Part shown: in pieces, positions 15,945-34,368 of the stretch | How positions within the stretch are numbered: the stretch's first letter is position 1 | How the letters are laid out: each line of letters starts with the position of its first letter | Assembly (NCBI GenBank): GCA_949317995.1 | Contig: OX439046.1 | Span: 63,163,355-63,227,354, forward strand | DNA: 64,000 nucleotides | Source: Acholoe squamosa | Taxonomy: Eukaryota > Annelida > Polychaeta > Phyllodocida > Polynoidae | Direction: 5' to 3' | Notes under the pieces: model-generated | Database searches by the model: none | Told to the model about the DNA's origin: nothing | Seen by the model: only the letters and a program-made list of their open reading frames with translations | Translations under genes and position numbers: made by a program

Positions 15945-15950
15945 ACTGGT
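15945..15950. repeat. Polinton target-site duplication, left
   Basis: ACTGGT, immediately outside the left terminal inverted repeat and identical to 34,363-34,368. Six bases is the family's usual duplication length. Confidence 0.95.
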
Positions 15951-16342
15951 AGTAGTATATACATGCAAACTGAGCGCAATGGATTAGCTACTAACTAGGT
16001 CATGACCTACTGGTAGACCGGAAGTGACCTAGTTTCAGCCAATCAGAGGGCTGGATTTGACAGGAAGTGACGTCATAAGGTCATGACCTAGTTTTTTCGA
16101 CCAATCAGAGAGCTGGATTCCATTTGACCTAGTGACCTGACCTAGATGCATAAATTAAAAGAATTGTGCAATACCTAGAGCTGACCTACTTACAAACCGG
16201 AAGTGACCTACTAACCTACTTGCAAAAACGTATGACCTACGTATGAGGGTGCATTGCGCAATGCTTGTAAGAATTTACACAATAACCATGACTCATTTTC
16301 TGATGCAATGTTCCTATGAATTTACGCAATACTTATGACTCA
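15951..16342 (+). repeat. Polinton left terminal inverted repeat
   Basis: About 392 bp, nearly identical in inverse to 33,984-34,362; the first 100 bases differ at only one or two positions. It carries many GACCTA/TAGGTC half-sites and GGTCATGACC palindromes. It also has two CCAATCAG boxes each followed by AGAGRGCTGGA, a CRE-like GTGACGTCAT, and short palindromes such as ATTGCGCAAT. Near the inner end the arms differ by small indels. Confidence 0.95.
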
Positions 16343-16486: not shown

Positions 16487-16912
16487 TTATATGGAAAATG
16501 AATTCTTGTTGCAGTACCAACTGCACCCGGTCTTGGCTGGAGTAGGACTTTGACTACGGTCCTCTAAGGCCCGCATTCTCTCCATTAAATCCTTCAAGGC
16601 CTTTCTTCCTATGTCGTTCTCCTCCAGGGCTACCACTTTGTCCATTAACTCGGCCATGATGATGAGAATCTTGTCTATAACTTCCGCCGTGCTCTGAAGC
16701 CCGTCTATCACGTCCAGTTCACGTTTAACTTTTCCTTTCACCAAAAGATTGCTCACGTCTGCTTTGACTGCTACTTCTTCTGGACTCATCTCGAAATTCA
16801 TTGCCTCTTCTTCTCTCTTTTTCTCAGGAAGGGCCTGACTATTTTGTCCATTAAGTTGAAGGGGACCTGAGAAAACCTTTTCACAGTGTGGTGTGGATCC
16901 TTGGTCCGACAT
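16487..16912 (-). CDS. Coiled-coil orphan protein, 141 aa (last leftward gene)
   Basis: Starts at an ATG inside the protease gene and overlaps its 3' end by about 115 bp in another frame. The protein is charged and mostly helical. Residues 40-120 show heptad-like hydrophobic spacing (repeated L/I/V in VIDGLQSTAEVIDKILIIMA and the following segment), suggesting a coiled coil. It ends in a short Pro/Ser and Cys-containing tail. A polyadenylation signal follows closely. I do not recognise the family. Position at the end of the capsid/protease block suggests a structural or assembly role, but that is inference. The alternative that this is a chance frame is less likely given its length outside the overlap and its regular helical composition. 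Confidence 0.6.
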   Translation of the reverse strand: MSDQGSTPHCEKVFSGPLQLNGQNSQALPEKKREEEAMNFEMSPEEVAVKADVSNLLVKGKVKRELDVIDGLQSTAEVIDKILIIMAELMDKVVALEENDIGRKALKDLMERMRALEDRSQSPTPAKTGCSWYCNKNSFSI

Positions 16913-17262
16913 GTTTCTATGAGGAAGTTAATGCAGTGGGCTCCACACGTTTTAGCGTAAAAGTTTTGCACTTGTTTTCTGCTGAACGACCCGTGACCAT
17001 CTGACGACTTTTGCATGAACCTCTGGTGATATATAGTAAACGGAGGTAAGCCATAGGGATCAAAGTAGAATACATTCCCGTTATGAGAAACGTAAAATGC
17101 CACCCAGTGCTGACCAGGTTTAGAGCTTGGATCTGTGTTACTGACGAAACATGTAGAGGGAATTGGTTTTTTAGGACATTGATTACTGGCAAAAGTTCCC
17201 AGGTAGAAACGTCTTGTGTGTGGATGGTTTCCCAGTGCACCTGTTATGTCTGAAGTTCTCAT
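16798..17262 (-). CDS. PRO: Adenain-like cysteine protease (Polinton maturation protease)
   Basis: 154 residues, a typical size for the adenovirus-protease/Ulp1-like (C5-type) enzymes that mature virions of Polintons and adenoviruses. The catalytic set is visible: His52 in GQHWVAFYV, Asp68 in FYFDPYG, a Gln at 97 or 99, and nucleophile Cys106 in CGAHC, the family's CGxxC-type motif. The start is an ATG 7 bp after the major capsid stop, so the two genes are tightly packed. Likely substrates are capsid and core proteins such as the small basic protein encoded two genes upstream; that is inference from adenovirus biology. The last 115 bp overlap the next gene in a different frame. No catalytic residue appears to be missing. 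Confidence 0.93.
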   Translation of the reverse strand: MRTSDITGALGNHPHTRRFYLGTFASNQCPKKPIPSTCFVSNTDPSSKPGQHWVAFYVSHNGNVFYFDPYGLPPFTIYHQRFMQKSSDGHGSFSRKQVQNFYAKTCGAHCINFLIETCRTKDPHHTVKRFSQVPFNLMDKIVRPFLRKREKKRQ

Positions 17263-17269
17263 TTTTTTC

Positions 17270-18586
17270 TCAGTTCATGTGGTAGTCTGTGACAGGAAGA
17301 CAGTCAGCCGTTAGTTGGATGTTGTTGTCGTAGAAGGAACACAAGACGGCAGATATGGCGTGAGTAGTCGGGGCGGCAAACCTAAGGGAAATGCCCAGCT
17401 TTCCTTGCTTGATGAGATTTATACGACTGTCTTCAGGTGCTCTGTCTGGGGTGAGGTCGAAAACAAAGAAGGAATATCCATCTTTGAAATCTTCCAAAGT
17501 TATGCCACAGTCTTGCCCCAAAGCCGACAGCCCACTGTCTATGAACATTTGACTGTAGGCTCTGATGCAGTTGCCTGTTTCGAAGTCGGTCTTCAACTCA
17601 AACTTTTGATCGTCATATCTCACGCATATTTCCTTCACGTTGAAATGCCTGCAGTTGAAAGGATTTTCTGTCTTAGTCCCAGCAGCTGCTGTTTCCTTTA
17701 TCATACACAAGACTATCCTGGTGGGGATCTGAGTAGTGTCAGGTTGAGTCCAACTGTAGTCTTGTGAGCCACCGTCCAAAGTGTGTTTAGTTACTTTACA
17801 CCTGGCTATGTGATAGTTGAAAGGGCCCCAATGTGGATTCCTGACACTGCTGACGTGAGTTTTCACCACCTCGTCGTCGACACATTTTTGGAGAAGTGTC
17901 ATTTCAGCTTTGGTGATTTTGACCCAGTAGTTTTGATCGGCTGCTTGCATCATGTAGTAATTGGGCTGATTTTTTTCGAATATGAACTTGATTTCACAGT
18001 TCGGAGGCAGCACCTTGCACTGTTTAATTAAATCCAGGTGCGGCTTCATTACCAAGGCATGCTTGTTGCGGGCACTGAACTCTGCTCTCCGTGCCGTCCA
18101 TCCAGCATTTTCGCCCGCTCTGGCTTCCATGTGACCACAGGTGTCTTTCATGTACTTTTGACACCCTTTCAACCGAGTCTCTTTGTCTTCTTTGTTGCAA
18201 CAAATTGTGTCCAAAATGTAGGCCTTGAGACCATAGTCTTCATTGTTGCCGGTGACTTTCTCCCCATTTATCAGCAACTGGCAGGAAGCAAAGAGAGCGT
18301 GTGCCAAGTTGTTGACTGGAGCAGCTTCTATGCCTACGGCAAGGTGAGTTGTTCCGTCTGCCGCCACGGCTTCCAGTTCCATGTACAGCTCAGTTTCTGA
18401 GAGGTTTGTGTACAGGTTGCTTGGTTCGAAGGTGAAGTCAAATGATTCAGTGTGTGGAGTCAGGGCATTGTTGGTAGTTTTGGTTATTTTTTGACATTTT
18501 AATATGTCCTTTTGAGTGACAGGCAAGGCGTGTAGGTCTAGTTCACCTACTGCACATACCTGACCCTTGGGATGAAGGAGACTCAT
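17270..18586 (-). CDS. MCP: Major capsid protein (double jelly-roll type)
   Basis: 438 residues from an ATG 2 bp past the upstream small basic gene. The N-terminal half has the pattern I associate with Polinton/adintovirus major capsid proteins, often annotated F54H12.2-like. A short N-terminus leads into an FTFEPSNLYTNLSETELYME block, then hydrophobic beta-rich segments around NLAHALFASCQLLINGEKV. The C-terminal half contains further beta-rich stretches (CEIKFIFEKNQPNYYMM, KLGISLRFAAP). No catalytic motif is expected. The frame is uninterrupted. It sits between the minor capsid/small basic genes and the protease, the usual morphogenesis cluster. The double jelly-roll fold is inferred from family membership, not visible directly. 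Confidence 0.85.
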   Translation of the reverse strand: MSLLHPKGQVCAVGELDLHALPVTQKDILKCQKITKTTNNALTPHTESFDFTFEPSNLYTNLSETELYMELEAVAADGTTHLAVGIEAAPVNNLAHALFASCQLLINGEKVTGNNEDYGLKAYILDTICCNKEDKETRLKGCQKYMKDTCGHMEARAGENAGWTARRAEFSARNKHALVMKPHLDLIKQCKVLPPNCEIKFIFEKNQPNYYMMQAADQNYWVKITKAEMTLLQKCVDDEVVKTHVSSVRNPHWGPFNYHIARCKVTKHTLDGGSQDYSWTQPDTTQIPTRIVLCMIKETAAAGTKTENPFNCRHFNVKEICVRYDDQKFELKTDFETGNCIRAYSQMFIDSGLSALGQDCGITLEDFKDGYSFFVFDLTPDRAPEDSRINLIKQGKLGISLRFAAPTTHAISAVLCSFYDNNIQLTADCLPVTDYHMN

Positions 18587-18588
18587 GA

Positions 18589-19059
18589 CTAGAACAAGGT
18601 CCTTCCTCTAGCTTGTCCTCTGCCTCTGCCGCGTTGCCCCTTACGTCCTCCGCGCTTGCCGGTTGCTCGTCGTTTGACTGGAGGAGGTTCAGATGTACCT
18701 TTTATGTATCCTTGAGCAGAAGAAGCAGCCCTTTTGAGTAAGTTCTTCCCTGTAGCTTTACTTCTCCTAACTAGACTTTTCTTGAAGCCTTTTCCTGTTA
18801 CCACGTCGGACAAGACTCCAGCTCCTGTAGAAAGCAAGGCTTTGCCTGCAGATTTGGCAGCCGAGCGTCCTATTTTACTTAAGAGGGGAACAGCTCCTCT
18901 CAGTAAACCACCTATTAACGAACCAAGTCCGTGCCCTCTTTGTCTGCCCCTGCCACCGTACGCTGGTAAAGCACCGTTCCCAAACTGTGATTTTCTGTAG
19001 TATTCAGCGTACTGACCCCTAGGGGCCAGGTATGGAGGTGTTCCATAGTAGTGAAGCAT
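18589..19059 (-). CDS. Small basic Gly-rich virion protein (pVI/pX-like)
   Basis: 156 residues. A Tyr/Pro/Gly-rich N-terminus is followed by a GLGSLIGGLLRGAVPLLSK segment (residues about 45-64) that could form a membrane-active amphipathic helix. A long Lys/Arg-rich region follows, ending in RGG/RGRGRG repeats. This composition is like adenovirus pVI/pX/core proteins and the equivalent small proteins of Polintons, which bind DNA or disrupt membranes and are protease substrates. It sits between the minor capsid (12-bp gap) and major capsid (2-bp gap) genes. The exact orthology cannot be decided by eye. Confidence 0.75.
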   Translation of the reverse strand: MLHYYGTPPYLAPRGQYAEYYRKSQFGNGALPAYGGRGRQRGHGLGSLIGGLLRGAVPLLSKIGRSAAKSAGKALLSTGAGVLSDVVTGKGFKKSLVRRSKATGKNLLKRAASSAQGYIKGTSEPPPVKRRATGKRGGRKGQRGRGRGQARGRTLF

Positions 19060-19071
19060 GGTAATATACTC

Positions 19072-20409
19072 CTATCCTTGAAGAGGTCTGAAGGCAAGTA
19101 CCACCGACACTGATCCGCTTTCAAATGGTATAGGTTCCCCAGTCTTGTCTCTTAAGTATATCCCTATCTGTCTGAAGGTGGTTTTAGTGACTGGCAGATA
19201 TATCAAGTTCTGGAAACTTATGGTCTGCATGTCACCGTTGTAGCGATTTATGTTGATTTGCCTCAGAAGGGGTGCTTTAGAATCACCCACAAGACTGTGC
19301 TTGACTATGTCAGAGTACACGAAAGCACATCGACTTTTGAACTGAAGGTCTACCACGTAGGGGCTTTGTGTTTTTCCACTTAGGAAAACACTTCCGTCAA
19401 AACCTAATTGTTTCCCTAAGTTTTCTGGGAGTTGCATGACCACACCAGGAGGCAAGGAAACTACACTTTTCATTGTGTATTTGTTGTAGTGAAACACGGT
19501 GGCTTTGTTGTTTTTCCTGTAGTTTCTTAGTTTTCTCACCAACATGCTCTGTAGTTTATTTATGGTCCTGTTCAAGTATCCTATCAACTCTGAGTTGCTT
19601 TCCAGGTTCACACCTTCTAAGGCAAACATATTGTAGATACTACCTTCCTTGAAGTAATACTTAGACAGGTATCTGCTAATTTCCTTGAAGCGTGTACTTA
19701 TTTTCACAGCCTGTAACTGACTGGGAGAGAGCGGAGAAACATTAGCAGAGTCTGTGAAGACGGCCTTTTCTTCAAAAAAAGAAAGAGACCTTTTTTCCCT
19801 GTCGTCCATAGACATCACTTCAGCCACAGCCGACGATATTTCCCTTTTCTCTCTGCCTGCCGTGTCACGCTCCCCCTCAACCTCCTCCTCTTCCTTTTCC
19901 TCCTTCTCTGGCGTGGGTTGGTTAGAAGTGAATCCTCCAGATGGCGTCTCAGTCGCAGCAGCAGGAGTTGGTGGACTTTCACTTGCAGGACCAGCAGGAG
20001 GAATGGTTTCAGTCGATCCCACAGGGTTGACATGACGTAGGTTTTTTGTTATTTTTACTCCTCTCTTCAAAGCAGATTGGGCTGATAAATTTGATGTAGA
20101 GCTTGAAGCTCTACTGAAGACACTATGGGCTCCTGGTTTTTCCAGAGGAAAAAATTCTCTTCTGCGTTTGTTCAATAAAGCTACTACAGAGCGGAGGTTG
20201 TTTGTCAGGTCGTTTTCTCCCTGTACCAAGAGAATGGGTTCTTCTTTAACGTTGTACCACGTGGTAGGACAGGTTATTTCTTGAAGAGCACACTCTAACT
20301 GAGTAGGAGAGTTAATGTATTCTGCCAAAATTGTATTGTAACTAGTTAAAGTGTTGTCAGGAAAAACGTTCATAGATGAGTTACTAGGTAAAGTTAAGGT
20401 AAACACCAT
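19072..20409 (-). CDS. Minor capsid (penton-like) protein
   Basis: 445 residues from the ATG at 20,409, which overlaps the integrase 3' end by 16 bp. The N-terminus carries the conserved Polinton minor-capsid opening: TLPSNSSMNVFPDNT, then an SY-T-L-Y-I-segment, an ALQEI block and a TTWYN block. The centre (about 90-210) is low-complexity, Pro/Thr/Ser then Glu-rich, and looks like an insertion or linker. The C-terminal part is again ordered, with VDLQFKSRCAFVYSD and LIYLPVTKTTFRQIGIYLRD segments and the end FESGSVSVVLAFRP. By analogy this single jelly-roll protein forms the capsid vertices. The frame is intact. The acidic linker is the unusual part. Confidence 0.85.
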   Translation of the reverse strand: MVFTLTLPSNSSMNVFPDNTLTSYNTILAEYINSPTQLECALQEITCPTTWYNVKEEPILLVQGENDLTNNLRSVVALLNKRRREFFPLEKPGAHSVFSRASSSTSNLSAQSALKRGVKITKNLRHVNPVGSTETIPPAGPASESPPTPAAATETPSGGFTSNQPTPEKEEKEEEEVEGERDTAGREKREISSAVAEVMSMDDREKRSLSFFEEKAVFTDSANVSPLSPSQLQAVKISTRFKEISRYLSKYYFKEGSIYNMFALEGVNLESNSELIGYLNRTINKLQSMLVRKLRNYRKNNKATVFHYNKYTMKSVVSLPPGVVMQLPENLGKQLGFDGSVFLSGKTQSPYVVDLQFKSRCAFVYSDIVKHSLVGDSKAPLLRQININRYNGDMQTISFQNLIYLPVTKTTFRQIGIYLRDKTGEPIPFESGSVSVVLAFRPLQG

Positions 20410-21473
20410 TTGTTTATGTTCTTGACAGGTTCCCAAGAGTTAAACTTGTCTCCATAACCCTTCCACTTGATCAAGGCTTCTCTTTTCTTGCCTTTTCCTC
20501 TGTATTTTACTATTTTTTCTATGTTGTAGCGTCTTCCGTGACGGACTTGCACCTTCTGAACTTCAGGTTCGTAGAAGCTTCCTTTTATCTCTTCTCCAAG
20601 GAGATCTTTCAGGTGGTACCCTTTGGGCGAAATGTTGTCGACTGTGTATATTTCCTCAGTCCAGTTAGGTTCGTACCCTCTGTTAAATGTTTTCTTTGTT
20701 TTCAACATTCGCACTTGATTTTTTCTCTTCAACTGAAGGACAGGAACTTTTTTCTTTTGAGGTTGATCGTACAACCTGTAGAACAAGACTTCAGAGTTGT
20801 CTTTATTTATGTCTGAAGGGGCAGCTCCTAAGGTTTTGTGGTAAGTCAAATTGTAGGACTTAACCAAGTCGGGCAGCAAGTCAACCCATTTGTAGTTATT
20901 GAAATGAGAGAAACATCTCCACATTTTTCCTTGTAAAGTAGAGTTGAATCTTTCGGCTAAGGCACACTTCACGTCGTCGTTCTCTCCTGTGAAAAAATTG
21001 ATTTTTTGATCTTCACAGTGTTTTTTGAAAATTTTGTTGACAAACTCTTTGCCCTTGTCAGTTTGAATTTGTTGAGGTTTTCTTTCTTTGCTCATTTTTT
21101 TGAAAGCCTCTGTCACGTCATCAGCTCTCTTACTTTTCACAGGTTGTCCAAAACCATACCTTGAAAAAACATCTATTCCCGCTAGAATGTACTGGTATCC
21201 TTTGTTTTCCTTTGAAAATTCTCGCATGTCTATGAGGTCAAGTTGCCACTGTTTGTCTATCCCCCATGTTTGTGTTTTTCTTCTTGGAAATCTTCTCTTG
21301 TAAGGTTTGTGTCTGGTGTAAGCGTCTACATCTTCCAAAGCTTGTTCTATGTTTTTTTTCTTTGTTTTCTTGAAGTGATGACGTTGAAGTTTAGATACGC
21401 TGGTGAAACTTCCAGGTTGTTTAGGATCTGTGTAAAACCTGAGGACATCTTTTTTCAAAGCCTTGTGCGCCAT
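20394..21473 (-). CDS. INT: Retroviral-type integrase with C-terminal chromodomain
   Basis: 359 residues. An N-terminal basic/His-containing region precedes an RNase H-fold integrase core with catalytic Asp79 (WQLDLIDM), Asp139 (IQTDKGKEF) and Glu174 (ALAERFNSTLQ). The D-E spacing is 35, as in retroviral and Polinton integrases. Residues about 255-305 look like the SH3-like DNA-binding barrel. Residues 315-354 form a chromodomain (YNIEKIVKYRG, then LIKWKGYG and NSWEP), the histone-tail reader found on many Polinton and LTR-element integrases that biases insertion sites. It inserts the linear element and makes the 6-bp duplication. It overlaps the upstream gene by 19 bp and the minor capsid gene by 16 bp. 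All key residues are present. Confidence 0.96.
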   Translation of the reverse strand: MAHKALKKDVLRFYTDPKQPGSFTSVSKLQRHHFKKTKKKNIEQALEDVDAYTRHKPYKRRFPRRKTQTWGIDKQWQLDLIDMREFSKENKGYQYILAGIDVFSRYGFGQPVKSKRADDVTEAFKKMSKERKPQQIQTDKGKEFVNKIFKKHCEDQKINFFTGENDDVKCALAERFNSTLQGKMWRCFSHFNNYKWVDLLPDLVKSYNLTYHKTLGAAPSDINKDNSEVLFYRLYDQPQKKKVPVLQLKRKNQVRMLKTKKTFNRGYEPNWTEEIYTVDNISPKGYHLKDLLGEEIKGSFYEPEVQKVQVRHGRRYNIEKIVKYRGKGKKREALIKWKGYGDKFNSWEPVKNINKWCLP

Positions 21474-22414
21474 ATAAACTTACGTCCAGTTCCTTTTTGA
21501 CTTACTTTCCTCTTCTTGATAGGGGAAGCTCTTTTCAAGGGACTGGCAGCAAAGGAAGGACTGTGCCCTGCAAAAGCCGACTTGTTTTTGACAAATTTTA
21601 AGGTGGGGTTCAGCCTTTTAACTGCTCTCATGAAAACCTGACTTCCTTTAGGTTGGTCCTTTTTCAAAGACTTTGGTCGGGCAGCAAAAGCTAACAAATC
21701 TGTTATGTCAGTTCCAGGCACACGTTCCCCGTTGACATATATTTCTCCGTCTCTGTTCCAATTCAAAATTTGACTTCCGTGACGAGATAATTCTCTGTAG
21801 AGATTTTTAGCAGTCGTTCTGTAACTTGCAGGTATTCTTTCTTTTATGTCGGCGTCCATACCCTCTGTGTTGTCTCTTGCACGAGGTTTAAAGCCTTCCT
21901 CCCCTTTGAACTCGTCTACACTGTCTCCGTCTGAATCGTCAGGAAGTGGTGGATCGTCTCTAGTCTCTGTGAAAGTGTGGTCATCATCGTCGTCGCCGTC
22001 GTCGGTGTCTTCTAAAGAATTGTTTACACCCCCAGCTGCTGCTGCTGCTGCTGCTCCTGCAGGGCCTTGTCCTACTGCTCGACCAGGATAGGGACCTTCC
22101 CTACGTTGTCCTAAGGCCTTGGCTTTTTTAGTTAAAATTCCCGACTTTATCATAAGTTGATTGTACTGCCTTAACTTTTCCTTCAGTTTGAGGTTAGGAG
22201 AGTTAAGCACCTCATGTGCTTTACTTTGAAGGTGGTTCAGGACTTGAACCAGGCTGGAATCAGGAGTTAAACCTTCTCTTAAAAGTTGAGTGCTGTAGTA
22301 CTGGTCTTGAACACTAGGTCCAGGCTGGGGAGGAGAGGAAGGACTAACAAAAGAAGGTTTTTTTTCTCGGGGAACAAGATCCGCCCTTACGAGGGCCATC
22401 CTTGAATAAGACAT
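21455..22414 (-). CDS. Conserved Polinton protein of unknown function, 319 aa
   Basis: Not assignable to an enzyme. The N-terminal third is Ser/Pro-rich with a helical stretch (about 60-95). The centre has an Ala8 run and a strongly acidic Asp-rich tract (about 135-160). The C-terminal half (about 195-290) contains IPASYRTTAKNLYRELSR, ILNWNRDGEIYVNGERVPG and TDITDLLAFAARP blocks. These match my memory of a protein regularly found beside the integrase and ATPase in animal Polintons/adintoviruses. The end is highly basic (SPIKKRKVSQKG-like), suggesting nuclear localisation or DNA binding. It overlaps the integrase start by 19 bp and lies 6 bp after the neighbouring small gene. A virion-core or packaging role is plausible but unproven. 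Confidence 0.75.
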   Translation of the reverse strand: MSYSRMALVRADLVPREKKPSFVSPSSPPQPGPSVQDQYYSTQLLREGLTPDSSLVQVLNHLQSKAHEVLNSPNLKLKEKLRQYNQLMIKSGILTKKAKALGQRREGPYPGRAVGQGPAGAAAAAAAGGVNNSLEDTDDGDDDDDHTFTETRDDPPLPDDSDGDSVDEFKGEEGFKPRARDNTEGMDADIKERIPASYRTTAKNLYRELSRHGSQILNWNRDGEIYVNGERVPGTDITDLLAFAARPKSLKKDQPKGSQVFMRAVKRLNPTLKFVKNKSAFAGHSPSFAASPLKRASPIKKRKVSQKGTGRKFIWRTRL

Positions 22415-22420
22415 GATTTT

Positions 22421-22786
22421 TTATCGACGTGCTCCTATGAGACCTGTTATCAGGGGTAAGGCGAGGCCCAAAATGGTTCCCAAAAATCCACCCTTTTGCT
22501 CAAAGGTTTTCCTCTTCTGCTTAACGGTAGCCTTGTGCCTTGTGACTGACTTGAGTTCTTTCTTGTAGGGTGATAAACGTTTGACTGCGTCGGACTCGTT
22601 ACGCAACAGGTTTTTGTTCATTACGTTGACGCAAATTTGACTCATCAACCTAATGACCTCATCGCTGAGACCTTTGATAATGTGGGAACACTCTGCCGAG
22701 GAACACTTGGATATGTGTTTCAACAAGTGGTAATGTTTCCTAATTGTTTTAAATTTTCCTCCAGAAGGAGATCTTTTGGTCACCAT
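22421..22786 (-). CDS. Conserved small basic protein with hydrophobic tail, 121 aa
   Basis: Starts at an ATG 1 bp after the ATPase stop. The first ~95 residues are basic and helical with Cys residues in a KHISKCSSAECSHIIKGL stretch and a LSPYKKELKSVTRHK block. The last 25 are Gly/Leu-rich (GGFLGTILGLALPLITGLIG), a likely membrane-active or transmembrane helix, ending in Arg-Arg. Small proteins of this layout recur in Polintons and adintoviruses and are assumed to be core or membrane-active virion components. Function here is inferred only from composition and position. Confidence 0.75.
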   Translation of the reverse strand: MVTKRSPSGGKFKTIRKHYHLLKHISKCSSAECSHIIKGLSDEVIRLMSQICVNVMNKNLLRNESDAVKRLSPYKKELKSVTRHKATVKQKRKTFEQKGGFLGTILGLALPLITGLIGARR

Positions 22787-22787
22787 T

Positions 22788-23477
22788 CTATCTTTTTCTT
22801 TTCGAAGCTGAAGCTTGAGGAATGAAAACCAAGGTGTTCCAAGGAGTTGTTATGCTGTTTCTTACCCTAAGCTCGTTAGGTGTGCTCTGCTTAAAGTCCA
22901 ATAGGATGTATGAATGTTTCTCTTTGGTTTCTGAGTTATATACCTCCGTCAAAAAGGATTTCTGTCCTGGAAAGGCCTGTTTGCTTATGTGCCCTATCTG
23001 ACTCATGTCTCTAGGGTTTTTAAAAACAACTAGGTAGTGTGCATTTAAGCTCAAGGTTCTGAAGGCAGGATTGTTGAAAAACAAGTTTTGAGTAACAAAA
23101 ATTACACTTAAACTGCGATGGTGAGAGCCCACAGTGAAAAGTTTCATTATGGTGGGAACGTACTCGGGATCCATGAGATCGTCTATTACGACCAGTCCAT
23201 GTTTAGTCACGTCTCTTTCATCCTCGAACAAAAAGTCTTCTGAAAGAAGACCTTTGTTAAACTTAACCCCCAACTTCGCCATTTCGTCGAATCCATCTTG
23301 CCATTGACTGTAGCAGTAGTATATGTCGTGTATTTTTGGAGTAACAAGCTCGTCTACACCTTTAATCAACTTGAAAACAAGTTGACTTTTCCCACAAGAA
23401 GTAGGTCCAGCTATGATCATTGTGAAGGGGCTTTGTAGACATGGGTCAAAAATGATCTCCTTTTCCTTGTGATCCAT
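22788..23477 (-). CDS. ATP: Packaging ATPase (FtsK/HerA, A32-like)
   Basis: 229 residues from the ATG at 23,477. Walker A is GPTSCGKS (residues 24-31), Walker B is LVVIDD (95-100), and a sensor-like VTQN motif follows at 129-132 after SVIF. The short, single-domain form is normal for Polinton, virophage and NCLDV A32-type genome-packaging ATPases, which drive DNA into preformed capsids. The start lies 13 bp downstream of the death-fold gene stop, and the next small gene starts 1 bp after its stop. All nucleotide-binding residues are present. Confidence 0.95.
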   Translation of the reverse strand: MDHKEKEIIFDPCLQSPFTMIIAGPTSCGKSQLVFKLIKGVDELVTPKIHDIYYCYSQWQDGFDEMAKLGVKFNKGLLSEDFLFEDERDVTKHGLVVIDDLMDPEYVPTIMKLFTVGSHHRSLSVIFVTQNLFFNNPAFRTLSLNAHYLVVFKNPRDMSQIGHISKQAFPGQKSFLTEVYNSETKEKHSYILLDFKQSTPNELRVRNSITTPWNTLVFIPQASASKRKR

Positions 23478-23490: not shown

Positions 23491-24120
23491 TTAAACCAAA
23501 GTGACCAAAGGAGCAACCTCGTCCTCTTTTAAACCAGTAGAACCCTTGTTCAAACCTTCCACGTAAAGAGCTACATCAGAAAGTCCCATGTTGTATAGAC
23601 TGGCTATTAGGCAGCTTGGATGAGATATTTCTCTATATTTCCAAACCATCAGAACTTCGAATACAGGATTTGTGACACCTTTTTTCCCTGGAACAGGGGT
23701 GGATATCAGGTTAAGCTCGTGGTCGCTCAATCCAAGTTGAGTTCCCAGTTTCCTCCAGTCAAGCATTTCGAACTTGTCTGCCAGGTTGACGAACAAAGTA
23801 TCAACTTTCCACTGTTCTGGAGGAATTTCACAATGGTCCACTACGTTGTAATATCCCATGTACCATCTACAATAATCAGTTAGATCGTAACGACCTATGT
23901 CACTTAATGCATGTCTCAATACCATCCACTTGCAACGCACGTTCTTTCTGCTCCATGAAATAAGCATTTCTCTCCCCATAGAACGAAGAGACGGTATTTT
24001 CTCCATGTAATCCATTAAACTTAGTCTGAGTCCTAAGTAAACCCCTAATCGAGGGTAGTCTTTTTCAGATATTTTTTCACTGACCTTGAATAACAACTCG
24101 TCCGAAAGGTGAAACTCCAT
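23491..24120 (-). CDS. Tandem death-fold protein, 209 aa
   Basis: The ATG at 24,120 is chosen because everything upstream in frame is low-complexity GGGTA repeat. The protein appears to be two consecutive death-superfamily helical bundles and little else. The first, about residues 5-88, has LSDELLFKVSEKI, DYPRLGVYLGL and a later W. The second, about 104-190, has the more typical FEMLDWRKLGTQLGLSDHEL block, an FEVLMVW motif and an ALYVEGL end. The W-x2-LG..LGLS pattern is characteristic of death domains in FADD, MyD88, IRAK and related adaptors. There is no enzymatic domain. Such a free-standing tandem module would be expected to bind host death-domain adaptors and block or redirect apoptosis or innate signalling; that role is inference. 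A TATA box lies about 90 bp upstream. DED or CARD assignment of the first bundle is possible. Confidence 0.75.
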   Translation of the reverse strand: MEFHLSDELLFKVSEKISEKDYPRLGVYLGLRLSLMDYMEKIPSLRSMGREMLISWSRKNVRCKWMVLRHALSDIGRYDLTDYCRWYMGYYNVVDHCEIPPEQWKVDTLFVNLADKFEMLDWRKLGTQLGLSDHELNLISTPVPGKKGVTNPVFEVLMVWKYREISHPSCLIASLYNMGLSDVALYVEGLNKGSTGLKEDEVAPLVTLV

Positions 24121-24208: not shown

Positions 24209-24216
24209 TTATATAG
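24209..24216 (-). promoter_or_regulatory. TATA box for death-fold gene
   Basis: CTATATAAG on the minus strand, 89-96 bp upstream of the ATG at 24,120. It sits at the edge of the GGGTA array, so the array would lie directly upstream of the core promoter. Confidence 0.5.
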
Positions 24217-24546: not shown

Positions 24547-25170
24547 TTATGACGTTGAGTGTAAAGCGAGCTGATTGTGGTGAAAACAGTGAGTAAGGGA
24601 GATAAGCTGGGTGCACCACATAGCCAGATAAAACCAAACTTTTTCTTTCTCCTCTACACTGAAACGATCCAGGGACGATGATGGGATGTGAAATATGGGG
24701 CAGGAGGAAAACAAAGTTTTGGTTTCTAAGCACTCAGCTAGTAGTTCCAAAATAGACATGAAGAAATGAAGACGCTGGTTAAGTAGGCGGGGATTTTCTT
24801 TGGCGTGATGCTCTTCTGCCGCTTTCAATGCTTCCAAATGGAAGGGGTTTTTCAGTGGGCCCTTTCCCTTTCTTCCATGCTTCAGGGCATAACCCAAGGT
24901 TTCCACCGCTGAAAATTTCGACAAGTTATGACTCAAAACCATTTTCCTCAAGGTTTTTCTGTCTTTGGATGTAAAACTTGATTGCACTGAAGAAAAAACT
25001 AAGTATAATTTTTTCCGGTGAAGAACACATTCTTTGAAGTATTTGCACACGTACCTGAAACAAATCGAAGAGCAACATATAATTTCATTTCTTTCCCTCA
25101 CGTATGTCAGAACTTGAGTGTCGTCGGGGTGACGTTGTTCTAATACACGCTGCAGGGAGTAACGCGACAT
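24547..25170 (-). CDS. Helical orphan protein, 207 aa
   Basis: ATG start about 55 bp downstream of a minus-strand TATAAAG. The sequence is predicted by eye to be mostly helical and is rich in Cys and His, especially residues 30-52 (IICCSSICFRYVCKYFKECV) and near the C-terminus (WCTQLISLTHCFHH). A middle segment (SAVETLGYALKHGRKGKG) is basic. I do not recognise a family. It lies upstream of the death-fold gene on the same strand and outside the conserved morphogenesis set, so it is probably an accessory, host-interaction gene. A further diverged death-fold bundle is conceivable but not supported by a motif. Confidence 0.6.
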   Translation of the reverse strand: MSRYSLQRVLEQRHPDDTQVLTYVRERNEIICCSSICFRYVCKYFKECVLHRKKLYLVFSSVQSSFTSKDRKTLRKMVLSHNLSKFSAVETLGYALKHGRKGKGPLKNPFHLEALKAAEEHHAKENPRLLNQRLHFFMSILELLAECLETKTLFSSCPIFHIPSSSLDRFSVEEKEKVWFYLAMWCTQLISLTHCFHHNQLALHSTS

Positions 25171-25405: not shown

Positions 25406-26062
25406 TTAGGAGGACCAAAAATTAGATACGGGGTAGGCTGTTACCACCTTCAGCTGACCTTTTTCATGGGAGGTAGTTATTTCAGTTATAACTCTCACAA
25501 CATGACAGCATCCATGGTAATTGTGTCCAATTTCTGTCCTGAAACCTCTTTCATAGAAAATTTTTGAACCTAAAGAGTGTGTAATTTTGTCTGGGTGAAG
25601 TAAAGTGGCTTTAATTAAAGCCTTCACCATAGTAGAATCGATGAAAACTGAATTACCAGGCCCTCCCCCCAAAGGTTGATCCCTTAGAAAAAAGGGTTTT
25701 TGTCTGTCTGAAATGAATTTCTTTGAACTTCCAGAGGAAATGGAATGTCTAGACATCAAGTGTACCATGGCACCATGTCCCAAAAGAACACCTGAAAAAA
25801 AACTTTCCCCATTTTCTGAGATAAGTTTTTTCACAGAGGGTCCACCAGGAACCAATGCAGTGGTTTGGTTGTGCAGAAAGCATTGTTTGAAGTTACAGTT
25901 AGGAGGGATGTAAAGATCCCTGTTCAAATTTTCAGGACAGAATTTCCACACAGCCCACACCTTACCTTCTTCTACGCCCCTCCTGATGTCTGAAATAAAC
26001 ACCTCCTGACGCCTTTTGTGACCTACGGTCAAAGACAAAGGCAAAGGACAAAAGTTAGCCAT
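25406..26062 (-). CDS. Orphan protein, 218 aa
   Basis: First gene of the leftward block, with its ATG at 26,062 facing the divergent promoter region. It has no signal peptide or transmembrane helix. Segments are mixed alpha/beta: an opening PLPLSLTVGHKRRQEVFISD, a central Gly/Ser-rich GVLLGHGAMVHLMSRHS, and a C-terminal KVVTAYPV. The last resembles the closing strand of some small nuclease folds of the barnase/EndoU/colicin-like group, which often end in T-A-Y/F-P. That resemblance is weak, and catalytic residues cannot be assigned. Probably an early accessory protein by position. Confidence 0.55.
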   Translation of the reverse strand: MANFCPLPLSLTVGHKRRQEVFISDIRRGVEEGKVWAVWKFCPENLNRDLYIPPNCNFKQCFLHNQTTALVPGGPSVKKLISENGESFFSGVLLGHGAMVHLMSRHSISSGSSKKFISDRQKPFFLRDQPLGGGPGNSVFIDSTMVKALIKATLLHPDKITHSLGSKIFYERGFRTEIGHNYHGCCHVVRVITEITTSHEKGQLKVVTAYPVSNFWSS

Positions 26063-26459: not shown

Positions 26460-27863
26460 ATGCCTGGTCGCATGAAGACGGGACTTAGTGTCAGGAGAGG
26501 AGGAGCTAAAAAACTGGCTCCACTAACTTTTACTACTTCTAAACAGACAGAGGAAAAGACGTCGGGCATCGCCCCTCCTCCTACCTCTCCAGCCTCACCT
26601 GATAAAACACCTGCAACTCCTGCTCGGCTTCCAACTGAAGTGCCTGATGCAGGAGAACAGGAAGCCGCTCTTGCAGCTCTTCATGGCGAAATCACTGATT
26701 TCCTGGATCGCGTCCGGGATCGCTCTCCTCAGGAAGCTGGCGACGGCGATTTTGACATCAGGGAATACATCAATCCCCCGGCACCTTTGAACTACCAACC
26801 CCCCACTGAAGCACCTACGTCCGCCTCTTACTCACCCGTGACTCCGGAGGAACCTTCTCCCCAGGTCAGTCCAATAAAGGTTATAGACCTTACAACCTCA
26901 TCACCGGCAGTTAAACCCATAGAAGTGGTGGACTTAACACAAGGGACACCTTCACCTGCTCACCGCGGGGGGTATTCGCAGGTAGAGGTTATAGATTTAA
27001 CCGGCCCTTCTCCTCTGTACTCTCTCCCGGTTCCGGTAGAGGAGCTGCTTCTTAAAAGCCCGCCGGAAAAAAGAAACTGTTCCAGTGAGAGAGAAGGGGA
27101 GCCTAAGAAAAAAAGACAGAAGCGCGCCTACCACAAGAAAACCCCTGTCTCTACCCCTGCTTCAGTTTCCTCAGCGACTTCATCCTATGGTGCCGAGCCA
27201 ATTGGTTCTGTCCCAGGTGTTCCTTCTCCTAAAGACAAGTCACACAGGCAAAAGTTTGGGGAGGGCACTGCCCCCAGTTCTTCCAGCAAGCTTGTGGGCT
27301 TTAGGTCAGTGCCTTTGGTGGTAAAAAAGTGGCCTGCTCGATTTGGTTTCCAAGAAAAGTCACCTGCCCCCGACCAAGTTTTTTATCCGGAAGGGGATAA
27401 CAACGCCTGCATAGAAATATACAGGGAACCTAGCATCAGGGGAGTATGCTTGAGAACCTACCTGGACAAACCTTACGAGCGGTGCTTGAACCTAGAGGCG
27501 CGTGAATTCAGGAACTTAGTGGACCAGATAGAGTGCATCCTAGGAAAGTACAAGGAGTTACACCGCCTAGCTGCCCTTGGAGAGAGGAAGGTGGATAATC
27601 TTTTGTTGTCCTTGAACCAAGACTGCACCGACCCCAGTGGAGGCCGGGCTATGGTCCTGGTAAACTTGTACAAGGGAACTCCTAAAGTTCACATAGGAAC
27701 AACCAGCTACGTGGAGGAAATGAATGCCTCGGTGTCTTCCAGCTTCAGAATGCCCCCCTCAGCCACACACTGCGGACACACTGTGTCCCCCTTCATTCTG
27801 GAGGACATAAAATCACGAGTTGGTCCCTTCCTAGACGAAACGACCGATTTCTACTCTGGGTAA
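26460..27863 (+). CDS. Protein with three SUMO-interacting motifs, 467 aa
   Basis: The ATG at 26,460 follows a TATA box by about 112 bp. The N-terminal half is Pro/Ser/Thr-rich and probably disordered. It carries three near-identical SUMO-interacting cores: VIDLT (141-145), VVDLT (156-160) and VIDLT (177-181). Each is flanked by Ser/Thr/Pro, the arrangement used by poly-SUMO binders such as RNF4-type ligases. A basic KKKRQKRAYHKK stretch (about 215-226) is a likely nuclear signal. The C-terminal ~190 residues are ordered, with VFYPEGDNNACIEIYREPS, GVCLRTYLDKPYERCLNLEA and FRNLVDQIECIL blocks. That pattern vaguely recalls small PC4-like ssDNA-binding folds, which I offer only as a test. There is no RING finger. 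It may bind SUMO chains at nuclear bodies or DNA-repair sites; role is inference. Confidence 0.7.
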   Translation: MPGRMKTGLSVRRGGAKKLAPLTFTTSKQTEEKTSGIAPPPTSPASPDKTPATPARLPTEVPDAGEQEAALAALHGEITDFLDRVRDRSPQEAGDGDFDIREYINPPAPLNYQPPTEAPTSASYSPVTPEEPSPQVSPIKVIDLTTSSPAVKPIEVVDLTQGTPSPAHRGGYSQVEVIDLTGPSPLYSLPVPVEELLLKSPPEKRNCSSEREGEPKKKRQKRAYHKKTPVSTPASVSSATSSYGAEPIGSVPGVPSPKDKSHRQKFGEGTAPSSSSKLVGFRSVPLVVKKWPARFGFQEKSPAPDQVFYPEGDNNACIEIYREPSIRGVCLRTYLDKPYERCLNLEAREFRNLVDQIECILGKYKELHRLAALGERKVDNLLLSLNQDCTDPSGGRAMVLVNLYKGTPKVHIGTTSYVEEMNASVSSSFRMPPSATHCGHTVSPFILEDIKSRVGPFLDETTDFYSG

Positions 27864-28095: not shown

Positions 28096-29715
28096 ATGCC
28101 GCCCAAAAAGGTAAAACAACTTTACACCGTCAACTGTCCAATGTGTAACACCCCTAGACCTCCACGTTTGGTTACTGTAGAAAACAGTGGAAAAACTTTA
28201 TGTAACTCAGATTCTTGTAGAAGAGAAACTTTTTCCGACAGCTTAGAACTTCCAAAAGAAATAGAAAAAAATTCTTTGCATAAAAGCAGTTACCGTGACA
28301 ACTTCAAGTCCATAGCTTCAGGTTTGGCTGTGCTTGGTAAGCTTCAGTCCATTTTCAACGTCAGAATGACAAGTTTCAACAAAGACTTGGGAGCCAAACA
28401 GGTAATAGAGGCGCTTACCTCTATTCATAGAAATCAAGTTATGGCTTACAAAGTGGCTGTCTCTTTTGGAAGGTTGTTGTCTTCCTCTAAGGAGGAAGAA
28501 GAAGAAGAGAAAGTCATGTACTTTCATGCTTCTGCCAACAACTCGTCTTTGTTCTATGACAGTGAAAGTCATAGAGACCCTTACATTTTTATAAGGGACG
28601 ACAAAGACTTTGCAGAGTGTTTAGATTTAATAGAAAACAACATTAAAGAAGACACTCAAAGACCCTCTACTAAATGGAGTGTAATAGGCAACGTGAACGC
28701 CAACATCACACTGATAAGGGCTACGGGAGGAGAATATCTTTTAGGTAAAATGAAAACTGTTCCACCAGGTTTAAGACAAAGAGGAATGCAACACTTTCAC
28801 AGAGACCCTAAAACCAAAAGGGCGTACAAGGACAACTTGTGTTTCTTTAGATGTCTGTCTTTCTTCCTGTATGAATCTTTAGAAAAAACTCAAGAGCTTT
28901 TCCTTGAAGCCTATCCAGGGGTGAACAAGGAGACTTTTGAGGGTGTTAACATAAGAGATTTAGACAGGTTAGAAAAAATGTTTGAAGTTAACATAAGAAT
29001 CTTTTACCTTCCCTCTTTTGGTAAAAGAAAGGGGCCACCTAAAATTATAAGGTCAAACATGGGTTCATCCAAAAAAATCATTAACTTGAACTTACACAGA
29101 AACCATGTAAGTTTAATAACTAACATGGGACTGTATGGTAAAATGTACCCCTGTGAAAAGTGTCATAAAGTTTTCACTCGTAGCTTCCTTTTGAAACAAC
29201 ACAATGGGGTGAAAAAAGATTGCACCAAAGTCAGCTTCAGGTACAAAGGTGGAGCATACAATCCATCCAAAACAGTTTTTCAAGTTTTAGAGGAACTGGG
29301 AATAGTTTGTTCACCTGAGAAAAAAATATACCCCTATAAAATTGTTTTTGACTTTGAAAGCTATTTCGTCCAACCTGAAAATTCGTCCCCAGAAAATGCT
29401 AACACTGTGATAGAAAAAACTCACATACCCCTTTCTGCCAGTGTAGCTTCTGATTTTCCTGGGCATACAGAACCAGTGTGTTTTGTCAGAAATTCCAACA
29501 GGGACGACGATCTTTTGGTTAAAAATGTGTTGGAACACATAAACAACTTGGGGCAGTTGATAGGAGAACAGGTGAAAGAGAATTTTAGAGATGTTTTAGA
29601 CGAACTAGACTCTCTAGAAGAAAAACAAAAGGAACTAGAACATAAAGCTAGCAAAGTTTTTCCAGCAAAGAACAAAAAAAATCCCCAAAAAAAATCTCCC
29701 ATGTTCTTGAAGTGA
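28096..29715 (+). CDS. POLB: DNA polymerase B, N-terminal part (zinc ribbon, OTU-like, exonuclease I)
   Basis: 539 residues from the first ATG. Order: a zinc-ribbon-like CPMC (14-17) with Cys36 and Cys41; a helical linker with a Glu-rich run (133-138); and an OTU-like cysteine-protease signature with DNLCFFRCL (Asp246, Cys249) and a later His337 (HRNHVSL). These are followed by a zinc finger with Cys353, Cys356, His369 and Cys376, then the polymerase's exonuclease I motif, FDFES with Asp419 and Glu421. OTU-type domains fused to Polinton polymerases are known to me; activity here is untested. The frame ends at 29,715, 19 nt after an A8 run. The rest of the exonuclease and the polymerase continue in the -1 frame without a gap, so this is one gene in two frames. 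Confidence 0.9.
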   Translation: MPPKKVKQLYTVNCPMCNTPRPPRLVTVENSGKTLCNSDSCRRETFSDSLELPKEIEKNSLHKSSYRDNFKSIASGLAVLGKLQSIFNVRMTSFNKDLGAKQVIEALTSIHRNQVMAYKVAVSFGRLLSSSKEEEEEEKVMYFHASANNSSLFYDSESHRDPYIFIRDDKDFAECLDLIENNIKEDTQRPSTKWSVIGNVNANITLIRATGGEYLLGKMKTVPPGLRQRGMQHFHRDPKTKRAYKDNLCFFRCLSFFLYESLEKTQELFLEAYPGVNKETFEGVNIRDLDRLEKMFEVNIRIFYLPSFGKRKGPPKIIRSNMGSSKKIINLNLHRNHVSLITNMGLYGKMYPCEKCHKVFTRSFLLKQHNGVKKDCTKVSFRYKGGAYNPSKTVFQVLEELGIVCSPEKKIYPYKIVFDFESYFVQPENSSPENANTVIEKTHIPLSASVASDFPGHTEPVCFVRNSNRDDDLLVKNVLEHINNLGQLIGEQVKENFRDVLDELDSLEEKQKELEHKASKVFPAKNKKNPQKKSPMFLK

Positions 29716-32237
29716 AGGAAAAACTTCTTACCTACATAGAAAGAGTCCCTGTTTTAGGTTTCAACTCTGGAAAGTATGACATTAATTTGATAAAAAAGGA
29801 ATTTCATTCTTTTTTTATAGACACAGACAAAACAGAAATGAAAACCATAAAAAAATGCAACAAGTACATAGCAGTGTACACAGACCATCTTCTTTTCCTT
29901 GACATGTTTAACTATTTGGCACCAGGTTATTCCTACGCAAACTACCTGAAAGCCTTTCTAAAAGGGAAAGCTGAAAAAGGTTTTTTTCCCTACGAGTGGA
30001 TGGACAACATAAGAAAACTGAACAACAAAGCTCTTCCTCCACGCCACTGCTTCTACAGTTCTTTGTCGGGTGGTGGAATAAGCAAAGAAGATTATCTTGA
30101 ATGTAAAAAGGTCTGGAAAGAAAACAAAATGAAAACTATGAAGGACTACTTGATATATTACAACAACCTGGATGTTAAACCCTTTGTTTTAGCCATAAAC
30201 GAGCACACAAAATTTTTTATAGATCGTGGGGTAGACATGTTCAAAGACGGTTTAACTTTGCCAGGTTTAACCTTGAAGTTTCTTTTCAACAACACTGCAC
30301 CTAATGCCACTCCTTACATTCTTTTTGGTGAGAAAGAAAAGGATGTTCACTCCTTGCTCAGACGCAACTTAGTAGGGGGTCCCTCTATTATTTTTCACAG
30401 ACATCACAAAAGTGGAGAAACAAGAATAAGACAAAAAAAATACGGGTCACAAAGCAAAGTATGCAGACACATAGTAGGGGAAGATGCTAACAGCTTGTAC
30501 CTCAAGTGCATGGGTGAAGAGCACTGCACAGGTTATTATGTGGTGCGCAGGAAAGAAAACGATTTTCAAGCTGTTTGCAGTCAACAAATTAGCTACTCAG
30601 CCACAGAATGGTTGCGATACAAAACTGTGACAGACAAAGTCAAGATATTACACCAATACAACTACGGGGAAGTAGTATTGGGTTCAAGGAAAATAAAAGT
30701 GGACGGTTATAATCCAGCTTCAAAAAAAGTATACCAGTTTCACGGGTGCTACTGGCATGGTCACATATGTCACCTCACTAAATCAGTTTTGAGAGACCCC
30801 AATGGAAAGGCATGGTTAGAAGAAAAAAACCAAAATACCATTTTGACTACCCTATATCTTCAGTCGTTAGGTTACCAAGTAGAGGAAAAGTATGAGTGTA
30901 TGTGGTTGAAAGAAAAAACTGAAAACTTGTGCAGAGAAACAAAAAGTGAATGGGAAATTAAAAGACCGTTGTGCCAAGGCAGAAAAAGTCAGGATGAAAT
31001 ACTGAGAGGGGTTTCTAAAGGAACAACTTTTGGACTTATCCAGGTAGACATAGAAACACCTGAATACCTGAAAGAAAAATTCAGTGAAATGACACCTATT
31101 TTCAAAAACTGTTTAGTAGGAAAAAAAGACGTAGGTGAACATATGAAACGTTACCTGGAAGCAGCAGGTAAGCTAAAACAACCGCAACGCCAACTTATAG
31201 GCAGCTACCACGCAGAGGGAATTTTGTTGGGAACTCCTCTCTTGAAGTGGTACCTGGAGAAAGGTTTGGTAGTTACGACAGTACACCTTCTCGTAGAATA
31301 CACTCCAGAACAGACTTTTTTACCCTTCATGGACGAAGTAACCAAAGCTAGGAGGAAGGGCGACGAAAATATAGACTGTAAGATTTTGTCAGATCTGTAC
31401 AAACTTTTGGGAAATGGTTCATACGGAAAAACCATATGCAACAAACAAAACTTTGTTCAAACAAAGTATCTTCACCCCTCTAAGGCAAGACGTTTGGCCA
31501 TGCACTGGTCAGTGCAAGATGTGCAAGACATAAGTGACAACACGGTAGAACTGTCCTGTTTGCCCACCTCCATCACCTACGATCTCCCAGTTCAAATAGG
31601 GTTCATGGTATACCAATATGCCAAACTTAAAATGTTGGCTTTCTATTACGACTTTCTCCTTGAATACATAGACGAGAAAGATTTTGAAATGTGTGAAATG
31701 GACACTGACAGTTTTTACTTTGCTTTAAGTGCAGAGAAAATAGAAGACGTAATTATTCCTGAAAAACGTGAAGCTTTCTTCAGAGAACGTCACAAATGGT
31801 TGCCCTCTGAATCATGTGACAACAGTCACCACAGAGAGACCTATGTTCAGACCAAAGTATTGGGTGAGCTGTGGCTGCCTCAACCATGTTGTAAGAGCCG
31901 TCTGGCGTTTGACAAGAGAACCCCCGGGTTATTCAAAGTGGAGTGGCAGGGTGACGAAATGACTGCCTTGAACTCCAAATGTTACATAGGCACAGGAGTA
32001 AATGTGCCCGTTAAAATGAGTTGCAAAGGTGTAATTCAAAAACAAAACCCCCTGACCACTGACAAGTACAAAGAAGTACTGGACAGTGAAAATGTTGTCA
32101 CGGTAGTCAACAAAGGATTTAAAGTAGTTAACCACAGCGTTACGACTTACTCTCAAAGGAAACAAGGTCTAACCTATCAGTACATAAAGAGACAAGTATG
32201 TGAAGACGGTGTAAGCACCCTACCCCTTTCTATATAA
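29712..32237 (+). CDS. POLB: DNA polymerase B, C-terminal part (exonuclease II/III, polymerase)
   Basis: About 840 residues in the -1 frame relative to the upstream part, with no ATG at its head, so it needs frame change or repair to be made. Exonuclease II is GFNSGKYD (16-23), and exonuclease III is likely NNLDV (151-155). Polymerase motif A is GEDANSLYL (Asp258), motif B is KLLGNGSYG (564-572), and motif C is MDTDS (663-667), all intact. A YQFHGCYWHGH insert (341-351) is a hallmark of Polinton-type polymerases. This enzyme class replicates linear DNA from a terminal protein. Only the frame break is damaged; no active-site residue is missing. The break could be programmed -1 slippage, a recent mutation, or a homopolymer sequencing error. 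Confidence 0.93.
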   Translation: MKEKLLTYIERVPVLGFNSGKYDINLIKKEFHSFFIDTDKTEMKTIKKCNKYIAVYTDHLLFLDMFNYLAPGYSYANYLKAFLKGKAEKGFFPYEWMDNIRKLNNKALPPRHCFYSSLSGGGISKEDYLECKKVWKENKMKTMKDYLIYYNNLDVKPFVLAINEHTKFFIDRGVDMFKDGLTLPGLTLKFLFNNTAPNATPYILFGEKEKDVHSLLRRNLVGGPSIIFHRHHKSGETRIRQKKYGSQSKVCRHIVGEDANSLYLKCMGEEHCTGYYVVRRKENDFQAVCSQQISYSATEWLRYKTVTDKVKILHQYNYGEVVLGSRKIKVDGYNPASKKVYQFHGCYWHGHICHLTKSVLRDPNGKAWLEEKNQNTILTTLYLQSLGYQVEEKYECMWLKEKTENLCRETKSEWEIKRPLCQGRKSQDEILRGVSKGTTFGLIQVDIETPEYLKEKFSEMTPIFKNCLVGKKDVGEHMKRYLEAAGKLKQPQRQLIGSYHAEGILLGTPLLKWYLEKGLVVTTVHLLVEYTPEQTFLPFMDEVTKARRKGDENIDCKILSDLYKLLGNGSYGKTICNKQNFVQTKYLHPSKARRLAMHWSVQDVQDISDNTVELSCLPTSITYDLPVQIGFMVYQYAKLKMLAFYYDFLLEYIDEKDFEMCEMDTDSFYFALSAEKIEDVIIPEKREAFFRERHKWLPSESCDNSHHRETYVQTKVLGELWLPQPCCKSRLAFDKRTPGLFKVEWQGDEMTALNSKCYIGTGVNVPVKMSCKGVIQKQNPLTTDKYKEVLDSENVVTVVNKGFKVVNHSVTTYSQRKQGLTYQYIKRQVCEDGVSTLPLSI

Positions 32238-33055: not shown

Positions 33056-33928
33056 ATGGAAAGTTTAGAAGCTATGCTTGTGGAGCAAACCACAGAAACT
33101 CCACCTTATGACTATTACATGCGTCCAGTTTTACAAAGTGTTGCTTCATATAATCAAGCTTCTTCTATAACACCTGACAATGATATAAGTTCTGTAGCAT
33201 GTGGATGTTCAGAGAATTTCTTTTGGGAAATAATACCTGCAGAAAACATTGGTTATTTTAGAGGAGCTGAACCAGACACTGTTGACCACTGTATAACTAG
33301 TGTTAAAATGTACAAATATTTCTCTTCAGCTTTTTGGGACGCCTACAGAAACTGTATGTACTATTGTCGAGTGAAAAAAGTTAACTTGATAATGCATGAT
33401 TGGTGTATAGGAGTATATCAATTGCACACTGAACCTGGCTGCCCAAGACACTACACAAGGTACACTTTAGGAAGTGTAAGAAAGTTTGCTCTTACTCTCC
33501 AAGAGTTAGAATGTAATCCCATAGTAGGAGTGTTTTGTCAGTGTAATTGTAAACTGGAAGTATCTGCTATTGCTAAAACTATTTGTTTCACATGTCTGCA
33601 GGTCTCTCTGGAACTTCATGCCTTAAGTATACCTGGAGTGAAAAATCATTTCTCCTTTGAGGTAAACTTTAAGGATGGTTTTTTATCTGGTCTTTTACCT
33701 GGACCCAAAAACAGTCAAACTTACTTCCTGGCCCAGGCTTTGTTCGAGCATGCTATATCTAACATAGCCAAACTTAACAGTTATTGTTTCCACAACACAT
33801 GGAAAACTAGTCTCACTGGCCAAAGCTGGTATCAAGCAAGTAAATTCACACACAACAAATGTTTTTGTAGTATATGTGCACGCCCCGGAAATGGAAAATC
33901 TGTCTTCATCTGTAAATATTGTGTCTAA
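33056..33928 (+). CDS. Cys-rich orphan protein, 290 aa
   Basis: Last rightward gene, starting at an ATG after a 265-bp AT-rich leader that follows the palindrome array. It is rich in Cys and aromatic residues: CGC near 49, VFCQCNCKLE near 160, CFTC near 177. A C-terminal cluster, CFCSIC then CKYC (about 271-289), looks like a zinc-binding treble-clef or RING-like knuckle. The aromatic-rich middle (YKYFSSAFWDAYRNCMYYC) is unusual. I do not recognise a family, and spacing does not fit a canonical RING. AATAAA overlaps the stop codon. Probably an accessory regulator; function unknown. Confidence 0.7.
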   Translation: MESLEAMLVEQTTETPPYDYYMRPVLQSVASYNQASSITPDNDISSVACGCSENFFWEIIPAENIGYFRGAEPDTVDHCITSVKMYKYFSSAFWDAYRNCMYYCRVKKVNLIMHDWCIGVYQLHTEPGCPRHYTRYTLGSVRKFALTLQELECNPIVGVFCQCNCKLEVSAIAKTICFTCLQVSLELHALSIPGVKNHFSFEVNFKDGFLSGLLPGPKNSQTYFLAQALFEHAISNIAKLNSYCFHNTWKTSLTGQSWYQASKFTHNKCFCSICARPGNGKSVFICKYCV

Positions 33929-33983: not shown

Positions 33984-34362
33984 TGAGTCATAAGTATTGC
34001 GTAAATCCATAAAAGTATTGCATCAGAACATTGTGTAAATTCTTACAAGCATTGCGCAATGCACCCTCATACGTAGGTCATACGTTTTTGCAAGTAGGTT
34101 AGTAGGTCACTTCCGGTTTGCAAGTAGGTCAGCTCTAGGTATTGCGCAATTCTTTTAATTTATGTAACTAGGTCAGGTCACTAGGTCAAATGGAATCCAG
34201 CTCTCTGATTGGTCGAAAAAACTAGGTCATGACCTTATGACGTCACTTCCTGTCAAATCCAGCCCTCTGATTGGCTAAAACTAGGTCACTTCCGGTCTAC
34301 CAGTAGGTCATGACCTAGTTAGTAGCTAATCCATTGCGCTCAGTTTGCATGTATATACTACT
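33984..34362 (-). repeat. Polinton right terminal inverted repeat
   Basis: About 379 bp, inverse of 15,951-16,342, with the same GACCTA half-sites, CCAAT boxes and CRE-like site. It is shorter than the left arm by small inner-end indels. Confidence 0.95.
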
Positions 34363-34368
34363 ACTGGT
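34363..34368. repeat. Polinton target-site duplication, right
   Basis: ACTGGT, identical to 15,945-15,950. Confidence 0.95.

Follow-up and report, generated by a model that had tools for sequence, protein, structure and literature searches.

Why should a transposon carry a gene whose recognizable content is the death fold and nothing else? The question is raised by a 64,000-nucleotide stretch of the genome of the polynoid annelid Acholoe squamosa (contig OX439046.1, positions 63,163,355 to 63,227,354; hereafter the window, numbered from its first letter), which contains a Polinton of 18,412 bp. Within this element, on the minus strand at 23491..24120, a single reading frame runs open through 209 codons to its stop codon, at exactly the coordinates given in the original prediction. 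With moderate confidence, we read it as an accessory Polinton gene composed of death-fold domains only, whose product is most likely a decoy for host death-domain adaptors, a FADD-like protein being the first target to consider.

Is the frame a gene at all? A chance open frame was rejected on two grounds: the Pfam Death match described below, and a length beyond the shuffle maximum (200 mononucleotide shuffles of the element yield no open reading frame, or ORF, of at least 200 amino acids, and the longest reaches 190). The start ATG at 24120 stands in the context GCTATGG, with G at both −3 and +4. Upstream of it the frame remains open as far as an ATG at 24348; a translation start there was rejected because the extension would cross a pentanucleotide repeat and a TATA-like box. 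The protein has a computed mass of 24.2 kDa and an isoelectric point of 6.0. Its highest mean hydropathy over 19 residues is only 1.25, so a membrane helix is unlikely.

What does the protein contain? Searched whole against Pfam-A, it matches Death (PF00531) over two stretches at 51.2 bits (E=1.4e-13; curated cut-off, 22.6 bits), the profile search suggested in the original prediction thus returning the expected family. No Pfam family other than Death appears at E≤1, caspase, kinase, TIR, DED (death effector domain), and CARD included; the earlier statement that the protein has no other domain holds at this threshold. Among the other element proteins, Death matches none of the nine scanned at E≤1 and none of the five scanned at E≤10.

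Profile, structure model, and fold comparison together strongly support a death domain in the C-terminal half (residues 112-184; 23569..23787, minus strand). Taken alone, this half passes the Death cut-off at 32.6 bits (E=8.9e-8), and the structure model gives it the six-helix death fold. Among the entries listed, its nearest neighbour by sequence as well as by fold is FADD, which ties in fold with ankyrin G among the 50 entries listed. (In the fold comparison, 142 of the 143 chains that Foldseek preselected were re-aligned, and the best 50 are given, so that absence from these does not exclude a family.) The listed sequence and fold matches also include the death domains of THOC1 and ankyrins, and those by fold include filament or helical-assembly entries for the death domains of TNFR1, RIPK1, TRADD, and MyD88.

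The N-terminal half (residues 12-82; 23875..24087, minus strand) is a marginal death-fold domain. Alone it matches Death at 22.7 bits (E=1.1e-4), and cut nine residues shorter it scores 22.4 bits, slightly below the cut-off. Six helices are present in the full-length structure model, at a predicted local distance difference test score (pLDDT) of 39. Two consecutive bundles had been claimed originally, with structure prediction of both halves as the check: the second bundle is firmly established, six-helix fold included, and the first is marginal by profile and by model confidence. For neither half does Pfam list a DED at E≤10 (HMMER filters may hide weak matches), and a plain tandem-DED protein of the viral FLIP kind was rejected on this ground. 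Aligned with each other, the two halves give a local score of 47, equalled by one of 2000 shuffles; a single pairwise BLASTP comparison aligns 80 columns at 24% identity, with E=0.003. An internal tandem duplication is a possible origin of both, but shared ancestry of any two death domains would produce the same resemblance.

Could the protein instead be a strict mimic of FADD: a diverged DED followed by a FADD-type death domain, captured from a host FADD-like gene, and competing at the death-receptor complex or serving there as a rogue adaptor? Its length of 209 residues and its register are near those of FADD, and the C-terminal half is nearest FADD in both sequence and fold; in the fold comparison, however, ankyrin G does equally well. 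The (I/L)GRxDL ending is frequent at the ends of death domains too, which tempers what can be made of a single string, RYDL, read by eye at residues 77-80. This string fits the RxDL pattern that the available part of PMC7823800 describes for DEDs. The half in which it lies nonetheless matches Death rather than DED, and we regard strict mimicry as improbable.

How, then, might two death folds serve the element? Death domains act by joining their own kind in helical assemblies: the death-receptor complex, the PIDDosome, and the Myddosome. FADD that lacks its DED blocks death signalling, joining the assembly and bringing no caspase. The decoy reading draws on five features of the Polinton protein: the FADD-like C-terminal half; the weaker match of the N-terminal half; the lack of an effector domain; the lack of a likely membrane helix; and residence in a Polinton beside a putative packaging ATPase gene. 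In this model the element would be expressed as a virus-like unit, and the death-domain gene would lead the leftward cluster of virion genes. Its product would bind a host death domain of the FADD or MyD88 type and, carrying no effector domain, would cap or poison the adaptor assembly. Caspases (or NF-kB) would stay off, and the producing cell would live long enough for virion assembly. The function may thus be anti-apoptotic or anti-innate. Only tentatively do we put forward a more specific version: a transposon bearing capsid genes, with a built-in dominant-negative FADD-like protein, in which a FADD-type death domain is joined to a second death fold that replaces the caspase-recruiting domain, encoded promoter-proximally in a virion-assembly unit. 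If this is true, Polintons go through a productive stage in which the cell-death or innate signalling of the host confronts them and exerts selection on them.

Does the position of the gene fit such a role? Its stop (23491) is separated by 13 nucleotides from the start (23477) of the ORF for the putative packaging ATPase (229 amino acids; 22788..23477, minus strand). The original prediction made the gene the immediate upstream neighbour of the packaging ATPase; the adjacency is correct, and the label comes from Pox_A32 and Adeno_IVa2 matches below the cut-off together with gene order. A TATA-like box, TATATAA (24209..24215, minus strand), lies 95 nucleotides upstream of the death-domain ATG, as a motif match and not as transcription evidence. 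A scan of the 200 nucleotides upstream finds no such motif before the ATPase, 319-residue, integrase, minor capsid, 156-residue, or major capsid ORFs; the matches before the 121-residue and protease ORFs, 156 and 161 nucleotides upstream, fall within neighbouring genes. Elsewhere in the element, matches precede the 207-residue, 467-residue, and polymerase ORFs by 59, 118, and 48 nucleotides, respectively, and the 218-residue and 290-residue ORFs have none within 200 nucleotides upstream. With ten minus-strand matches in 18.4 kb, a chance match within 200 nucleotides of a given ORF is expected about one time in nine, and the motif counts stand without a shuffle control. A transcription unit running leftward from the death-domain gene would fit this pattern, the matches being to motifs and not to transcripts. 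Two accessory ORFs (24547-25170 and 25406-26062) lie upstream of the death-domain gene, which therefore sits at the junction of an accessory block and the core cluster. Just upstream of the gene, a TAGGG / CCCTA pentanucleotide repeat forms inverted arms (24192-24252 and 24408-24468; 61 nucleotides, 87% complementary), the nearer of which contains the TATA-like box.

First place in the virion-gene cluster would also suit a pro-death or pro-signalling protein, whose death domains would seed assemblies and help to kill or lyse the cell late, for virion release. Isolated death domains do form filaments, as in the TNFR1, RIPK1, TRADD, and MyD88 entries. We nevertheless think this role unlikely: the protein has no effector domain; killing the host cell is costly to a genome-resident element; and the viral death-fold precedents considered here, the viral FLIPs, are inhibitors.

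The close linkage to the ATPase gene, in turn, would suit a structural or scaffold protein, in which the death fold is reused for oligomerisation, either during packaging or within the nucleus, and does not engage the host's death signalling. The death domains of THOC1 and the ankyrins, which are not death adaptors, lend this some plausibility. A core virion role, however, predicts conservation along with the capsid protein. Relatives of the putative major capsid protein number 53 in the protein database (E≤0.01, identity up to 72%), and for 24 of these the longest contig is at least 12 kb, in principle reaching a gene 5 kb away. For the death-domain protein, the same database holds no relative at E≤10, either among 136 candidates for the full length or among 4 for residues 100-200, in a search whose candidates must share exact five-residue words, which a fast-evolving gene could escape, and which had no neighbour-gene control (the ATPase, for example). 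Capsid relatives were found and death-domain relatives were not; the gene looks like an accessory of its lineage and not a core gene, such a distribution being what one expects of a lineage-specific accessory, and a scaffold role appears to us a poor prospect.

Viral and prokaryotic collections add nothing to this picture. IMG/VR holds no relative of the death-domain protein (searched with the protein and with an alignment of its two halves), and no related element recognizable through the ATPase, the capsid protein, the capsid alignment, or one polymerase piece. The capsid alignment finds nothing in GTDB genomes, nor the capsid protein in INPHARED. These scans, like those of the protein database, depend on exact matches of patterns or words, and records from the genome to which the window belongs may be missing from them.

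Since no relatives were found in other elements by the protein-database searches, might the gene be a recent passenger from the host: a captured death-domain sequence, functionless for the element, and undecayed so far? Lancelet data show that Death-domain genes can be mobile and variable; in the available part of that study, Death is the most over-represented domain among the dispensable genes of two lancelets (PMC12373286). Against a passenger stand the unbroken frame, the TATA-like box, the good start context, the spacing of 13 nucleotides to the ATPase ORF, and a length greater than that of any ORF from the shuffles. We think it improbable that the gene is idle cargo; the decoy reading remains our preferred account.

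What kind of element carries the gene? Repeat search and end comparison identify terminal inverted repeats, the left (15951..16283, plus strand) beginning AGTAGT and the right (34030..34362, minus strand) ending ACTACT. By the repeat search they measure 335 nucleotides and are 99% complementary; compared position by position inward from the exact ends, 328 of the first 335 agree. Outside both ends, end comparison reveals a perfect 6-bp target-site duplication, ACTGGT (15945..15950 and 34363..34368). Together with a retrovirus-type integrase, these features support a Polinton of the adintovirus type. The perfect duplication and the near-identical repeats suggest that the element inserted fairly recently.

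Leftward, on the minus strand, the death-domain and ATPase genes are followed by a 121-residue protein (22421..22786) and a 319-residue protein (21455..22414), neither with a Pfam family above cut-off; the retrovirus-type integrase with chromodomain (20394..21473; rve 1.3e-10, Chromo 1e-8); a putative minor capsid protein of 445 residues (19072..20409), named from position alone, with no Pfam match; a basic 156-residue protein (18589..19059), taken from the ORF list and Pfam scan; a putative major capsid protein of 438 residues (17270..18586), named from position and size, with no Pfam family above cut-off and no solved structure found; and an adenain-like protease (16798..17262; Peptidase_C5 at E=6.4e-4, slightly below cut-off). 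Integrase and chromodomain thus exceed the Pfam cut-offs, and protease and ATPase fall below them. The two accessory ORFs upstream of the death-domain gene, also on the minus strand, encode 207 residues (24547..25170), with a weak match below cut-off to the function-unassigned family DUF5662 (E=2.4e-4), and 218 residues (25406..26062), with no Pfam family.

Rightward, on the plus strand, come an accessory ORF of 467 residues (26460..27863), with no Pfam family; a putative DNA polymerase B region (28096..32237); and, beside the right repeat, an accessory ORF of 290 residues (33056..33928), with no Pfam match and a cysteine-rich C-terminal end. The polymerase region occupies two overlapping frames, 28096-29715 and 29652-32237 (stop to stop), and neither piece has a Pfam polymerase match at E≤10. 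Recoding could account for the split, as could a genuine lesion or an error in sequencing. We take the capsid and polymerase genes to be such from their size, their place, and the look of their sequences. The element had been called an intact Polinton, which is borne out by its ends, its target-site duplication, and most of its ORFs, and not by the divided polymerase region. Elsewhere, Rfam gives no match at gathering thresholds, and PHROGs (three proteins) and NCBIfam (five proteins) gave nothing useful.

Past the polymerase region, still inside the element, an 81-bp tandem unit is repeated 5.6 times with 97% matches (32307-32763); the unit holds self-complementary TTGTTCAAATGAAC-like stretches. 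Outside the element lies a 909-residue ORF (36692-39421, minus strand); it has no Pfam match, and close to its N-terminus a 12-residue repeat occurs about ten times. Also outside is a block of nested tandem repeats with units of 20 bp and about 112 bp (47360-48854). Of 20 ORFs of at least 130 residues outside the element, eight were scanned, with no Pfam match at E≤0.01.

How does the locus compare with known systems? As in Polintons (Mavericks) generally, integrase (here with a chromodomain), adenain-like protease, putative ATPase, and capsid-size ORFs occur in order. The AGTAGT/ACTACT ends are those reported, in the available part of a 2021 survey, as the commonest end motif of vertebrate Mavericks, (AGT)2//(ACT)2 (PMC8097293). 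According to the same part of that survey, the ATPase of vertebrate Mavericks belongs to the polymerase module, whereas here it accompanies the integrase and capsid ORFs; the vertebrate modules point inward, or outward in the cane toad, and the clusters here point outward (PMC8097293). The element differs further in that accessory ORFs occupy its middle. Particles of these Mavericks, the survey notes in the part available, have not been observed (PMC8097293). Polinton virions are deduced from gene content, and a gene whose likeliest partners are adaptors of host death or immune signalling would point indirectly to a stage of life within cells that defend themselves. The literature on Polintons and adintoviruses that was covered, which does not include the founding adintovirus paper (PMC8502044, Starrett et al. 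2021), yielded none that names a death-domain or death-fold protein.

Among cellular proteins, a FADD ortholog would have a DED and then a death domain; here the death domain is present, and the N-terminal half matches Death and has the RxDL string at residues 77-80. The proposed action would resemble that of dominant-negative FADD. Among viral proteins, the closest parallel is the viral FLIP MC159 of molluscum contagiosum virus, which is likewise small and pairs two death-fold domains. In the available part of PMC7823800, the two DEDs of MC159 are described as blocking death-receptor apoptosis. MC159, however, has two DEDs and belongs to a poxvirus, whereas the present protein has death domains and belongs to a Polinton; the two resemble each other in layout and in the way they are supposed to act, and the resemblance does not extend to family. 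By this analogy, the comparison suggests a known kind of protein, the viral death-fold decoy, in a form that would be new both in using death domains and in residing in a Polinton. If the protein is indeed a decoy, death domains join the DED-based viral tools against adaptor assembly.
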